Origin: Clostridiales bacterium FE2011
GTDB taxonomy: Bacteria > Bacillota > Clostridia > Christensenellales > Aristaeellaceae
Assembly: GCA_017569305.1 (NCBI GenBank)
Contig: CP069418.1
Location: forward strand, 558,001 to 622,000
Direction of reading: 5' to 3'
DNA: 64,000 bases
In this document: piece after piece, positions 3,551 to 24,689 of the stretch
How the letters are laid out: each line of letters begins with the position of its first letter
How positions within the stretch are numbered: the first letter of the stretch is position 1
Translations under genes and position numbers: made by a program
The notes under the pieces: model-generated
What the model was told of the DNA's origin: nothing
What the model saw: only the letters and a program-made list of their open reading frames with translations
The model's database searches: none

Positions 3551-3583
3551 AATTATGAATTATGAATTGTGAATTATGAATTT
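3551..3583. repeat. heptanucleotide repeat (AATTATG type)
   Basis: Four units of seven bases (AATTATG, AATTATG, AATTGTG, AATTATG) plus a partial unit, placed between promoter and start codon of the next gene. It differs in sequence from the TTTTAAG-type heptads elsewhere in the first 24 kb but shares the 7-base period. Confidence 0.75.
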
Positions 3584-5795: not shown

Positions 5796-5950
5796 TATTT
5801 TTAAGTTTTCAGTTATTGAGGAGGCATCCGTGCTTCAGCACGGCCAATGCCTCCCATGCTACAGCTGTCAAAGTTTCGAAGGAACTTTGGTAACAGCGAT
5901 CGCAAAGTTTTCAGTATTCATTTGATAATATATTGTCTTCAGTATTCATT
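5796..5950. repeat. heptad-bounded structured element, short copy
   Basis: Starts with TTTTTAAG/TTTTCAG heptads and ends with GTTTTCAG/TATTCATT. In between is a folded block. Stem P1 pairs 5820-5827 (GGAGGCAT) with 5847-5854. P2 inside it is CCGTGCT/AGCACGG (5828-5843). P3 pairs GCTGT (5864-5868) with ACAGC (5893-5897), and P4 inside it pairs CAAAGTT with AACTTTG (5869-5889). Bases between stems (CATGCTACA, then GATCGCAAAG) match the long copy at 14064-14296. Function unknown; no coding. Confidence 0.75.
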
Positions 5951-7406: not shown

Positions 7407-7430
7407 GGATGGCGTTTTTCTCTCCTTTCT

Positions 7431-7447
7431 GCCCGCATCCCGCGGGC
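7431..7447 (-). promoter_or_regulatory. hairpin abutting the SD of the GldG-like gene
   Basis: GCCCGC (7431-7436) pairs with GCGGGC (7442-7447), ending a few bases before the AAGGAG site. A second copy of the same hairpin module lies at 7468-7479. Short hairpins in this place recur before five other genes here. Confidence 0.6.
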
Positions 7448-7566
7448 AACTCTTCGCCCTTCACTGTCCGCATCCGCGGGCAACTCTACACTCTTCACTC
7501 ATCACTCTGCACTGACAAACTTAAATCATTTTTAAGTCTTAAGTTTTAAGTTTTCAGTTTTCATTA
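7448..7566. repeat. longest phased heptad tract
   Basis: From 7481 the sequence reads as about twelve consecutive 7-base units without a phase slip: CAACTCT, ACACTCT, TCACTCA, TCACTCT, GCACTGA, CAAACTT, AAATCAT, TTTTAAG, TCTTAAG, TTTTAAG, TTTTCAG, TTTTCAT. Consensus drifts from a TCACTCA type to a TTTTAAG type. A shorter piece (CAACTCTTCGCCCTTCACT) with its own hairpin precedes it. No coding. Confidence 0.85.
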
Positions 7567-8332: not shown

Positions 8333-8409
8333 AAACTTTTCACTAATCACTGGTCTCTTACAAACTTAATCATTTTTAAGTCTTAAGTTTTAAGTTTTCA
8401 GTTTTCATT
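8333..8409. repeat. heptad tract between ATPase and permease genes
   Basis: Seven-base units AAACTTT, TCACTAA, TCACTGG, TCTCTTA, CAAACTT, then after a one-base phase slip TTTTAAG, TCTTAAG, TTTTAAG, TTTTCAG, TTTTCAT. Same design and order as the tract at 7481-7566. Confidence 0.85.
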
Positions 8410-14003: not shown

Positions 14004-14296
14004 GTCAATTACTCATCACCATCACAATGATTCACAAGCCCAAAACACTATATCATTTTTAAGTTATTGAGGAGGCATCCGTGCTTTAGCACGGGCGAAG
14101 CTCTGATGACTGCCGGTGGCAGAAATCTCGTCAGAGCTGAGGTCATCTGAAACGAGTGATCTTCCCAGTGGGAAGTCACGACGATTGAAGATGCGGTATA
14201 TGCCTCCCATGCTACAGCCGTCCATTTCTGCGAGTCTATGACGATGCAGAAATGGAATACGGCGATCGCAAAGTTTTAAGTTTTCAGTATTCATTA
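14004..14296. repeat. heptad-bounded structured element, long copy
   Basis: This fills most of the 376-base gap between 13950 and 14327. Outer left sequence includes AGCCCAAAACACTAT, also found at 23180-23194. The core from 14064 repeats the layout of 5813-5950: P1 14071-14078/14200-14207, P2 CCGTGCT/AGCACGG, P3 GCCGT (14217-14221) with ACGGC (14259-14263), P4 CCATTTCTGC/GCAGAAATGG (14222-14255). Between P2 and the P1 closing arm is an extra insert of about 105 bases with its own hairpins (CTGCC/GGCAG, CTTCCC/GGGAAG, AGCTCTGA/TCAGAGCT). It ends in TTTTAAG/TTTTCAG/TATTCAT heptads. No gene seen. Confidence 0.75.
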
Positions 14297-22325: not shown

Positions 22326-22991
22326 TCATACTCCTTCTGTTCGTGAGGAAACAAGAATCCGTATTGTGTTCAGTGCGTCCCTGTGCCGGATCTGCCGGGG
22401 TTCAAACTTCAGCAGGTTATACACCAGCTGCATCACAATGCCGGCACCGAAGGTGCTGATCAGCGTTCCGATACCGATCGGTCCGCCAAGCAGCCAGCCG
22501 GTCAGCAGTACCGCTGCCCAGAGCATAACTTCCACAATGCCGATCGGCACCTTCGGAAGCCTTTTGCCCAGGCCGACCAGCAGGGAATCCCGCGGTCCGC
22601 AGCACTGTTCCCCCTTCATATAGATCCACATACCCAGGGCCATAAACACAAAACCGGTAAGCATGATCAGAATGCCAAGCCAGGTGTTCTTATTTTCCGC
22701 CAGGGGATTCAGGTCGTTGAACATCTGCACAAAATTGCCGGTCAGCAGCGCGTCAATAATAGTTCCGAAACCGATCCGCTCCTTCAGCAGCAGGTCGATT
22801 CCCAGGATAATCAGCGCCATAACCGTCATGGAAAGGCCGTAATTCAGCGGTGTATGCTTCGCAATTCCCATTCCGAGACAGTCCCAGGGAGCCAGTCCGA
22901 TATTGGCAAAGATCGTCAGATGAACGCCAAAGGCAAACACCAGCAGGCCGAGTATGATTCTTCCCCACTGTACAACAATCTTTTTCCGCAT
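22326..22991 (-). CDS. YczE/YitT-like membrane protein
   Basis: A 221-residue protein with five or six hydrophobic helices. The N-terminus (GRIILGLLVFAFGVHLTIFANIGLAPWDCLGMGI) and the middle CCGPRDSLLVGL match the YczE/YyaS group, members of the wider YitT-like family. Function is not established; roles in export of small compounds have been suggested for relatives. The ribosome site GGGAGAG lies directly after a hairpin. Cotranscribed with the secreted protein downstream. Confidence 0.8.
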   Translation of the reverse strand: MRKKIVVQWGRIILGLLVFAFGVHLTIFANIGLAPWDCLGMGIAKHTPLNYGLSMTVMALIILGIDLLLKERIGFGTIIDALLTGNFVQMFNDLNPLAENKNTWLGILIMLTGFVFMALGMWIYMKGEQCCGPRDSLLVGLGKRLPKVPIGIVEVMLWAAVLLTGWLLGGPIGIGTLISTFGAGIVMQLVYNLLKFEPRQIRHRDALNTIRILVSSRTEGV

Positions 22992-23109: not shown

Positions 23110-23200
23110 CGTGCAGCGGCAACTCTTCACTTTTCACTCATCACTATTCACTTATTACCCTTTACCCAATGTACACACCAGCCCAAAACACTATCATCAC
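23110..23200. repeat. TCACTCA-type heptad tract
   Basis: Units CAACTCT, TCACTTT, TCACTCA, TCACTAT, TCACTTA, TTACCCT, TTACCCA run in phase from 23110. A degenerate stretch ending in AGCCCAAAACACTATCAT follows. The last part is shared with 14041-14054. A hairpin GCCG/CGGC lies at the left edge near 23098-23110. Confidence 0.8.
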
Positions 23201-23312
23201 TTTTGACGAAGTCAAAAATATCATATTCGCCTTTAGGTGAATCTATCATATTTGCATTAAGCAAATATATCATGTTGCGCAGCAACATATCATTCTTTTG
23301 CGAAGCAAAAGA
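23201..23312. repeat. array of five unlike hairpins with NTATCAT spacers
   Basis: Five small inverted repeats follow one another: 23201-23217 (TTTTGAC), 23225-23242 (ATTCGCC), 23250-23266 (ATTTGC), 23274-23286 (GTTGC), 23294-23312 (TCTTTTGC). Loops are three to five bases. The four spacers are each seven bases: ATATCAT, CTATCAT, ATATCAT, ATATCAT. Stem sequences are unrelated, while spacer and size are conserved. It lies in the 393-base gap 22992-23384, with heptads on both sides and no coding. Not a CRISPR: units are about 24-25 bases and the constant part is only the spacer. Confidence 0.85.
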
Positions 23313-23366
23313 CTATTCCTTTTCATCGAAGAAACCGCTTCCCTCCGGAAGCGGGTTCCTCTACCA

Positions 23367-23400
23367 TTTTTAAGTTTTAAGTTTTCAGTTTTCAGTATTA
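23367..23400. repeat. TTTTAAG-type heptad tract overlapping a gene end
   Basis: Heptads TTTTAAG, TTTTAAG, TTTTCAG, TTTTCAG, then TATT. The minus-strand reading supplies the last codons (Asn-Thr-Glu-Asn) and the TGA stop of the alpha/beta hydrolase gene. A hairpin with a 9-base stem (AACCGCTTC type) lies at 23334-23357 just outside. Confidence 0.8.
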
Positions 23401-24485
23401 ATTTTGTTAGACAAACTGCTGTCATAAAATTCCAGCAGTTTGTCTAACAGCTCCCTATTCAGCCTGTTTTCCCAGTATTTCTTCACGTCCACATTCACCT
23501 GGTAATACTTTTCCCGATCCTTTTCCAGCCGTTCAGCGTTAGCCTTGTCATTATAATCATAGTCCAGGGTTTCCAGCCATTGCTGGTAAGCTTCATCCGT
23601 TTCTGTCACATAGGGCGTAGCCTCATGGAAGTACCTGTGTCCCTTATCTTCATAGCAGATAAAGGAGAAACGCGGATCATCCTTATGGTTCCTGTAATAG
23701 ATGTCATATCCAATCTCAGTCGGTACCACTTTGTCGTCCATACTGTGGACAATCATAATCCGGGCGTCGGTATTGTTGAAGCCGTCTTCAGCTGTGATGG
23801 TGGAATACTTCCCGAATTTAATATAATCATGCAGTCTCAGGAAAGGCAGCGTCAGGTAAACCGCCGGCCCCGCGATGGCCTTTCCTTCAGAAATGAATAT
23901 GCCCAGTGAATCATTGTAGCCGGAGCAGGCGACTACTGCTTCCACCTCGGGATGAAGCGTCAGCACAGCGCTCACGCAGTATCCGCCCCAGCTGTGGCCG
24001 AACAGTGCAATGGGAAGCTGCGGGAAATTTCCGCTTTCTTCCACAAATGATATCGCGTATGACAGGTCAATCATGCCCTGCGGCAGTCCCCGCGTGGATT
24101 CGCCTTCGCTTTCTTCACTACCAGTAGCGTCAAAAGCAAATACATAATAGCCGTGCTTCGCGAAATAATCCGCGCAGTTCATATAATAGCTCTGTCCGCC
24201 GCCGTACCCGTGGGCAAAGATAATAATACCTTTCTGGTCTGACCCTGAAGAGTACAGATACCCTGTCAGTTTCTGTCCTTTATCAGAAGGAAAGATATAC
24301 TGTGTCCGTTCAAGTCCGTCATAGAACTCTGCGCGCTGCCTTGTCAGCTTATCGGTTTCGTAGCGCCTGCCAAAGAAGCGGCTGCATTCCACTTCCGTCA
24401 GGATCCAGGCGCCCGCAATCACCAGGACCAGTACACAGGCCAGGATAATCAGGATCTTTTTCCTGACAGGCATCTTTTTCTTCAC
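23385..24485 (-). CDS. membrane-anchored alpha/beta hydrolase
   Basis: A 366-residue serine hydrolase with an N-terminal membrane helix (about 10-30). The oxyanion-region motif HGYGGG is near residue 120, nucleophile Ser in GHSWGG near 183-188, Asp in MDDKVVP and His in DKGHRYF. Substrate unknown. I choose the GTG at 24485, with AAGGAG nine bases upstream; ATG at 24473 is the alternative. The last four residues come from repeat DNA, and the segment before them spans a 15-base perfect inverted repeat (23407-23447). Confidence 0.85.
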   Translation of the reverse strand: MKKKMPVRKKILIILACVLVLVIAGAWILTEVECSRFFGRRYETDKLTRQRAEFYDGLERTQYIFPSDKGQKLTGYLYSSGSDQKGIIIFAHGYGGGQSYYMNCADYFAKHGYYVFAFDATGSEESEGESTRGLPQGMIDLSYAISFVEESGNFPQLPIALFGHSWGGYCVSAVLTLHPEVEAVVACSGYNDSLGIFISEGKAIAGPAVYLTLPFLRLHDYIKFGKYSTITAEDGFNNTDARIMIVHSMDDKVVPTEIGYDIYYRNHKDDPRFSFICYEDKGHRYFHEATPYVTETDEAYQQWLETLDYDYNDKANAERLEKDREKYYQVNVDVKKYWENRLNRELLDKLLEFYDSSLSNKINTEN

Positions 24486-24660
24486 CCCATACAGCTCCTT
24501 CCCTGTATTTGGTCCTCTGTCTTGTGTCTTTGTCTTCTGTTTTGCGCTTTGTATTGTTTGAATTATACCATAAAACCCGGTATTCTTATGTGACTTCATC
24601 TCACTCGTTGCGTAATAACATGTAAAAGTACTGCATTTCATTGTTTCTTTATGGTATTTT

Positions 24661-24689
24661 TTGACGGGACACAAAGAACTTGGTATGAT
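24661..24689 (+). promoter_or_regulatory. promoter of the ComB-like operon
   Basis: TTGACG (24661-24666), 17 bases, TATGAT (24684-24689) preceded by TGG, an extended -10. The same TGGTATGAT occurs at three other promoters in this window. Confidence 0.75.

Follow-up and report, generated by a model that had tools for sequence, protein, structure and literature searches.

An array of five hairpins joined by constant heptads belongs to a high-copy intergenic repeat class catalogued as Gut-1 RNA and may act at the DNA level

Structure and Setting of the Hairpin Array

The stretch of DNA analyzed here (64,000 nucleotides of the Clostridiales bacterium FE2011 genome, contig CP069418.1, positions 558,001 to 622,000; hereafter the window) contains, at the locus of interest, two minus-strand genes, an alpha/beta hydrolase gene at 23385-24674 and a gene at 22326-22991. 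Between them, at 23201-23312, the plus strand carries five near-perfect hairpins (stems of 5-8 bp, loops of 3-5 bases) separated by four NTATCAT spacers. The preliminary description had reported five hairpins and four spacers of the same length, and re-reading of the sequence confirmed both the coordinates and the structure. In the list below the hairpins are numbered 1 to 5 as read on the minus strand and lettered A to E as read on the plus strand. The FE2011 genome is designated G000, and the relatives compared with it are G001, G002, G004, G005, G008 and G035.

22326-22991, minus strand: gene, no Pfam match
23122-23157, minus strand: tandem heptads of the GTGAAAA/GTGAAGA/GTGATGA type (as read on minus), absent together with the array at the G001 site
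23185-23200, minus strand: conserved 3' tail of the element, GTGATGATAGTGTTTT on minus
23201-23217, minus strand: hairpin 5 (A), 7 bp, loop TTC on minus and GAA on plus
23218-23224, minus strand: linker heptad ATGATAT, ATATCAT on plus
23225-23242, minus strand: hairpin 4 (B), 7 pairs, one of them A.C on minus and G.T on plus; loop TAAA on minus and TTTA on plus
23243-23249, minus strand: linker heptad ATGATAG, CTATCAT on plus
23250-23266, minus strand: hairpin 3 (C), 6 bp, pentaloop TTAAT on minus and ATTAA on plus
23267-23273, minus strand: linker heptad ATGATAT, ATATCAT on plus
23274-23286, minus strand: hairpin 2 (D), GTTGC-TGC-GCAAC on minus, 5 bp, loop GCA on plus
23287-23293, minus strand: linker heptad ATGATAT, ATATCAT on plus
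23294-23312, minus strand: hairpin 1 (E), 8 bp, loop TTC on minus and GAA on plus
23262-23340, minus strand: sub-threshold match to RF01706 (Gut-1 RNA), 29.4 bits (cut-off 50)
23331-23359, minus strand: terminator-like hairpin between the hydrolase gene and the array, also found at the array-less G001 site
23367-23400, minus strand: tandem heptads of the ACTTAAA/ACTGAAA type (as read on minus), present with the array (G035) or without it (G001)
23385-24674, minus strand: alpha/beta hydrolase gene, best Pfam match PF12146

In stems C and D two further pairs are possible, reaching into the spacers. Parts of the array recur in other arrays with NTGATAT-type links: the tail GTGATTATAGTGTTT is common to many of them, TTAAT is the commonest loop of their hairpin-3 slot, and GTTGC is the commonest stem of their hairpin-2 slot. 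RNA folding of the plus strand gave the five hairpins at -32.6 kcal/mol (z -5.3), a value equalled by none of 200 shuffles, and the minus strand of the array folded with a z of -2.7 (5 of 200 shuffles did as well). When the whole window was dinucleotide-shuffled 60 times and parsed on both strands, three link-hairpin-link units appeared, each of them single, and chains of two or more were absent. The same parser, which rejects some hairpins of the window array, recovered one three-unit chain on the minus strand and one single unit on the plus strand of the real window. A chance origin of the array was rejected on this count of zero chains.

Membership in the Gut-1 Class

At gathering cut-offs, Rfam returned no matches in the whole window, so a default annotation run overlooks the array. 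At a relaxed threshold, RF01706 matched it with an E value of 0.0025 in a search of 1401 bases and of 0.0015 in a whole-genome scan. The match arises because the Gut-1 model, too, consists of successive hairpins connected by UGAAAU links: when two sister arrays were aligned to it, the hairpin row was reproduced, with UGAUAU links where the model has UGAAAU. Weinberg et al. (2010; PMC2864571) give Gut-1 as probably a noncoding RNA from the human gut only, and the open-access PMC literature yielded no later paper on it after 2010. The elements described here share with Gut-1 the tandem hairpins with UGAAAU-type links, and at least 23 places in the FE2011 genome lie over the cut-off of 50. They differ in forming a many-copy intergenic repeat with almost no G-U pairs, found also in the relative G001 (a goat omasum record), and the window array itself differs in reaching 29.4 of 50 bits, in its NTGATAT links and in its five hairpins.

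The FE2011 genome contains at least 72 RF01706 places at E ≤ 10, at least 64 at E ≤ 0.001 and at least 23 over the cut-off, several of which overlap one array. At E ≤ 10, 9 of 14 control genomes also showed weak matches, none over the cut-off, and the figure we quote is therefore the at least 64 places at E ≤ 0.001. All such counts are lower bounds, the scans having scored 150 candidates in the FE2011 genome, 63 in each relative and 11 in each genome of the class sample. In the genus, at least 7 of 37 genomes had matches at E ≤ 0.001, and among relatives overall at least 10 of 61 (FE2011 included in both), at a threshold at which one control genome, E. coli, also matches weakly. In the class sample, searched at 1e-6, matches were found in at least 52 of 391 genomes and 41 of 223 genera (again with FE2011 included) and in 0 of 14 controls. 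The preliminary description had named the lack of a second array in the genome as the outcome that would tell against its reading; dozens were found. Clusters of arrays lie at 2.17-2.20 and 3.33-3.40 Mb of the FE2011 genome. Genomes found to bear arrays are G000, G001, G002, G005, G008 and G035.

Within the fetched stretches, the plan of the four-hairpin arrays is AATGAAATA-hairpin-TGTGAAATA-hairpin-TGTGAAATA-hairpin-TGTGAAATA-hairpin-TGTGAYAGTTACT, with NTGAAAT or NTGAATT links. NTGATAT links and the tail GTGATTATAGTGTT characterize the five-hairpin form, of which the window array is an example, and a third form with ATGAATT links was found in G002 and G008. A GAATT pattern search gave matches in 5 of 41 genomes, those in G000, G001 and G035 being plain heptad runs. 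Link type is mostly uniform within an array, with one core in 75 of 123 arrays, TGATAT together with TGATAG in 23 and other mixtures in 25. Variant links, GTGATAT and GTTATAT, occur at loci from other families of the order, and one of these loci (L148) carries, as read by eye, about eight or nine hairpins in a row.

Across 173 parsed arrays of six genus genomes, the constant part is the unpaired link (NTGAAAT, NTGATAT or NTGAATT) and the variable part the paired one, with 339 distinct hairpins among 544; what had been noticed in the window array alone thus holds for the whole set. The link is a heptad of a kind also found as plain tandem heptads beside arrays or in their place. Among parsed FE2011 arrays, 45 of 57 have four hairpins and the remainder two or three, although the smaller numbers are partly an artefact of parsers that require recognizable links and so split or miss mutated arrays; in the same counts five-hairpin NTGATAT arrays figure as four, their first hairpin preceding the first recognized link, and the window array was parsed with only two.

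A copy of the window array that is 93% identical lies at 3353541 of the FE2011 genome, and further copies are 76-88% identical over most of its length. The window array is very probably one copy of a dispersed Gut-1-class element, representing the NTGATAT sub-type, with five hairpins, of an intergenic class that is high in copy number.

Turnover of Arrays at Orthologous Sites

At the orthologous site of G035 the array is identical in 137 of 137 bases, inside a stretch that is 96.9% identical over 4060 bases. In G001, where the genes at the site are about 86% identical, the array is absent and the terminator and the ACTTAAA heptads are present. Comparison of an 80-kb region with the six relatives, of which G005 yielded no pair, showed that the occupant of one intergenic site can vary: an array, plain heptads or an array with other links may stand there, or the site may be empty, and each such difference may be a gain or a loss. 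G000 and G035 carry an NTGAAAT array between groES and groEL (both named from sequence), and G008 carries one with ATGAATT links; at this site G001 has heptads and G002 two hairpins, and G004 is empty. Replacement of a whole array was seen at 3364939, where flanks that are 97-98% identical enclose different stems in G000 than in G035 and G001, and at 3364453 and 3369026 an array stands against heptads between relatives. A swap of a single slot was seen at 3393577, where one G001 slot differs and the others agree with G000. The first hairpin of the G000 array at 3336991 is terminator-like and is found in G035 too, where no array accompanies it.

Among 44 orthologous array pairs of the close trio, slot-by-slot homology was found in 31, a different parsed number of hairpins in 8 and no identical hairpin in 5; of these 5, three are homologous by eye, every hairpin being changed, and two are real replacements (a single locus, seen in two genomes). 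The 8 pairs differing in parsed number include at least one clean loss or gain of a single hairpin (L132 / L245) and two that represent the replaced 3364939 array. The 31 homologous pairs contain 99 hairpins, of which 72 are identical, 8 have a loop change, 17 a one-sided stem change, 1 a change on both sides (an apparent slot swap) and 1 a change in length; the ratio of 17 to 1 slightly understates two-sided changes, since the pair L129 / L220, counted among the 8, apparently hides one in slot 4. The 18 one-sided pair changes comprise 3 G-U, 6 A.C and 9 others, and the stems thus decay without a preference for wobble pairs. Their perfection, taken together with this one-sided decay, suggests that stems are renewed rather than repaired through compensation. 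Some selection on the stems is possible, since in homologous arrays they diverge by 1.6% and the flanks by 4.2%, a difference that is partly parser bias. The low divergence of the links likewise stems in part from what the parser selects.

Likeness among copies differed between the sub-types. Between four-hairpin NTGAAAT arrays more than 20 kb apart, 1912 same-slot comparisons found 37 shared stems (1.9%), and 5736 comparisons across slots found 58 (1.0%). For NTGATAT arrays the corresponding figures are 42 of 416 (10%) and 8 of 1248 (0.6%), and this sharing by slot makes the sub-type look copied. The NTGAAAT form looks as if its stems were rewritten or very quickly exchanged. One array, at 3369026, is present in G000 and missing in all five aligned relatives (G001, G035, G008, G002 and G004), and a search of the whole FE2011 genome found no near-identical donor for it, the best candidate being 84% identical over 86 bases.

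Genomic Position and Orientation

None of 62 parsed arrays of the FE2011 genome lies inside a gene as predicted by a simple script. For 42 of the 62 the upstream gene is on the same strand; 30 of these start within 35 nt past its stop codon, and in six arrays the TGA of the first link is itself the stop codon of the upstream gene. All three 16S rRNA genes (1.78, 1.90 and 3.12 Mb) are on the plus strand, and the GC skew switches sign between 1.49 and 2.01 Mb, from which the leading strand was taken to be minus on the left and plus on the right. By this assignment the Gut-1 strand, the one matching RF01706, is the leading strand in 55 of 62 arrays. Between convergent neighbors, where gene direction gives no preference, 18 of 19 arrays have the leading-strand orientation. 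Fourteen arrays run opposite to both flanking genes, and 10 of these follow the leading strand, a proportion that is not significant alone. Five of the seven exceptions to the orientation have an opposite-strand array no more than about 810 bases away. In G035 and G002, where the leading strand was judged from the GC-skew sign of each fetched stretch (array included), array strand agreed in 36 of 38 and 37 of 39 cases. In the stretches fetched from the FE2011 genome, plain heptads of the ACTTAAA and GTGAAGA types obey the leading-strand rule in 63 of 67 cases; those of the AATTATG type do not.

Base Pairing and Loops

Perfect hairpins make up 502 of the 544 in the 173 arrays of six genus genomes, a set that leaves out the last hairpin of each array. 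Its 4033 stem pairs comprise 3988 Watson-Crick, 7 G-U, 19 A.C and 19 other pairs. Terminator-like hairpins of the same genome, collected with similar tolerance, contain 16 G-U and 8 A.C pairs among 730 (Fisher 5e-9 against the arrays), although this control demands a T-run and G-C content and the arrays need neither. The comparison of 7 in 4033 with 16 in 730 indicates that wobble pairs are not favored in the arrays, unlike in an RNA under selection. Tolerated wobble and compensatory change, as would be looked for in RF01706 as an RNA, were not what the stems showed.

The loops have a marked polarity. Read on the strand opposite the Gut-1 strand, GNA (TNC on the Gut-1 strand itself) accounts for 268 of 383 triloops, with 4 in the reverse sense, and GNNA for 45 of 109 tetraloops, with 3 in the reverse sense. 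Three other families show the same polarity in 10 of 18 triloops and 29 of 33 tetraloops. The third base of the GNNA loops is a pyrimidine in 27 and a purine in 18, and given this lack of a purine preference they are not RNA GNRA loops. Innermost stem pairs are C-G in 469 of 544 hairpins. According to a published study (PMC4686876), DNA mini-hairpins with GNA or GNNA loops on at least two G-C pairs are extraordinarily stable, GCGAAGC melting at about 78 degrees. The second innermost pair of the array hairpins is G-C in only 70 of 121 seven-base arms, so a part of them falls below that published requirement. Control hairpins outside arrays, taken on either strand, have GNA-type loops in 19 of 74 and GNNA-type loops in 20 of 81, and the enrichment in arrays is therefore real, yet not unique to them. 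From the typical rule the window array deviates in its pentaloop slot, its TTTA loop and its one A.C pair.

Interpretation and Alternative Explanations

The scarcity of G-U pairs, the loop polarity and an orientation that follows replication together favor DNA over RNA, and we put the chance that the working form is a DNA hairpin at about even. Our preferred reading, to which we assign a probability of roughly 0.55, is that the arrays are a REP-like, strand-oriented DNA-hairpin repeat, mobile or renewing itself between genes and tied to the replication fork. The element would act and spread as single-stranded DNA, one strand folding into unusually stable mini-hairpins at or behind the fork. 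The constant heptads could serve as recognition or copying junctions, and gene 3' ends as tolerated landing sites, in which case the element would work like a mobile palindromic repeat of the REP/BIME type. Perfect stems would then reflect recent making or copying and not long-term compensatory selection, and a trans-acting factor would make or move the repeat. The step from a DNA-level, strand-specific element to one moved by a single-strand nuclease is one that we infer.

A first alternative, a functional RNA (a 3'UTR or small RNA, a true Gut-1 RNA) in which the hairpins would space UGAUAU or UGAAAU links with predicted protein binding, has a layout comparable to that of the CsrB/RsmZ-type decoys. 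In its favor, the one curated model to match describes an RNA, 30 of the 42 arrays with a same-strand upstream gene start where a 3'UTR element would, links and tail are conserved, both strands of the window array fold better than most shuffles (z -5.3 on plus, -2.7 on minus), and stems diverge less than flanks. We nevertheless regard it as unlikely: G-U pairs (7 in 4033) are rarer than A.C pairs (19), one-sided changes show no wobble preference, 14 arrays run opposite to both neighboring genes, and in the window array the plus strand folds better than the Gut-1 strand. Another explanation is a passive repeat, REP-like and without a dedicated factor, that ends transcription or protects mRNA and is copied by occasional template switching. 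Its copies would be kept because they are harmless at gene ends, and the strand bias would result from deletions that remove the orientation with the greater stability on the lagging template. This possibility, which we hold to be somewhat improbable but a serious competitor, agrees with the frequent location at gene ends, with slot 1 at 3336991 being the gene's own terminator-like hairpin, with the foldback palindromes that gene ends carry in general (in 10 of 239 genes, where 0.15 would be expected) and with the GNA strand being kept off the lagging template; however, exact heptad links, a nearly fixed hairpin number and conserved tails require some recognition, and the array hairpins precede a link and not a T-tract.

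The two remaining alternatives carry far less weight. Integron-like attC sites, or other recombination sites between gene cassettes recognized as a one-strand structure, would share with the arrays a structure conserved above sequence, a frequent position 3' of same-strand genes and an occurrence in clusters. The neighbors in the clusters are nonetheless ordinary-looking (GroES-like then GroEL-like, DnaK-like and TrpRS-like, as named from sequence), relatives preserve the gene order across the 11 kb compared, array flanks pair up in relatives, and no cassette exchange was seen in the parts compared. Integron cassettes were rejected on these grounds, and we consider such sites extremely unlikely. 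The preliminary description had itself proposed that the array may grow by adding hairpins and looks like a cargo of one heptad system, a model that we think very unlikely. The longer chain of L148, the one clean one-hairpin difference (L132 / L245) and the heptads that flank both arrays and structured blocks point toward it. Growth is not supported, given a hairpin number of four or five that is nearly fixed in the genus (45 of 57 with four) and the identical array in G035. The idea of a common cargo holds insofar as the array and the structured blocks both lie among heptads, and fails in that a block may be present or absent while the array stays (3393577, 3372762) and that array and block look unrelated by eye.

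Returning to the strand-oriented DNA repeat, a further and rather improbable elaboration is a single-stranded DNA element that writes new perfect stems on placement or renewal and keeps its links, its ends and the C(GNA)G loop core. It would work by templated palindrome synthesis from self-priming GNA hairpins at forks near gene ends, and it is suggested by the rare sharing of stems among NTGAAAT arrays and by the array at 3369026 having no close donor. The NTGATAT sub-type, with the window array and its 93% copy at 3353541, is more like ordinary copying. If the stem-writing reading were true, it would represent a new way of generating sequence diversity. The turnover at orthologous gene ends offers a natural experiment on the origin of perfect palindromes. 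An RNA family published in 2010 without a function appears here as a high-copy, replication-oriented hairpin repeat with DNA-level traits; if this is true, Gut-1 matches should not be annotated as noncoding RNA genes. Absence of wobble pairs combined with loop polarity may provide a general test separating DNA-level from RNA-level palindromes.

Comparison with Known Systems

REP/BIME and other GTAG- or CGTC-tagged repeats are described as high-copy extragenic palindromes near or overlapping stop codons, sometimes in inverted pairs (PMC3733652, PMC6006769). The arrays are likewise high-copy extragenic palindromes, often near gene ends. They differ in that REPs carry the GTAG/CGTC tag on a family-specific palindrome, whereas the arrays vary the palindrome and fix the heptad links, and in that no transposase was seen to track them, as judged from one family, PF01797. 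This Y1 transposase family has three places in the FE2011 genome and occurs in 25 of 41 genus genomes, array-less ones included. Its presence, taken as that of a candidate RAYT, was not seen to track the arrays; it was rejected as the obvious partner, and a search of the 41 genomes with the PF01797 model gave no cognate TnpA. With single-strand transposition of the IS200/IS605 type (PMC6006769), the arrays have in common hairpins read on one strand and a fork-tied orientation. A plain IS608-like route is at odds with their GNA-loop strand, which is the leading template rather than the exposed lagging one, and NTGAAAT copies lack the mutual resemblance expected of recent transposition products. 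Cyanobacterial STRRs are heptanucleotide tandem repeats. The arrays resemble such repeats in their seven-base intergenic units, and differ from them in placing a hairpin between successive heptads. TAACTGA repeats, which are heptanucleotide tandem repeats too, likewise had a uniform chromosomal orientation in the eight Microcystis sets between stop codons sampled in one study (PMC4679880). A CRISPR-like array does not fit, the variable units being palindromes (perfect in 502 of 544) and not non-palindromic spacers.

Other Repeats in the Region

The 3' end of the hydrolase gene (window 23407-23447) contains a 15-bp perfect palindrome followed by heptads that provide the stop codon, and its orthologue in G001 has a different 3' end. 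In L132 4003-5013, L138 4386-5336, L140 1752-2807 and seven other genes, the coding end forms the left arm of a perfect foldback palindrome of 9 to 19 bp; the expectation of 0.15 in 239 genes quoted above for such palindromes comes from shuffled downstream sequence. In G002 and G001, the orthologues of 3360714, 3369026 and 3350086 contain inverted repeats with GGGACGGTTCT or GGGACAGACC cores that interrupt arrays, lie beside them or replace them; we take these to recall the REP-type sequences of Y1 transposases.

The structured blocks at 5812-5912 and 14063-14280 of the window have a GGAGGCATCC...ATGCCTCC pairing and are repeats of the dispersed type. Of 20 stretches fetched from the FE2011 genome, 8 contain parts of the 14.1-kb block, and a related block lies inside the ACTTAAA heptad run at 3393577 in G000 and G035 and is lacking in G001. 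Tandem heptads of the AATTATG and TTTTAAG types occur at 3551-3582, 7530-7561 and 8374-8405 of the window, and a 34-base unit containing a short hairpin (CTGCCCGCATCCCGCGGGCAACTCT...) is present twice at 7429-7499, beside heptads.
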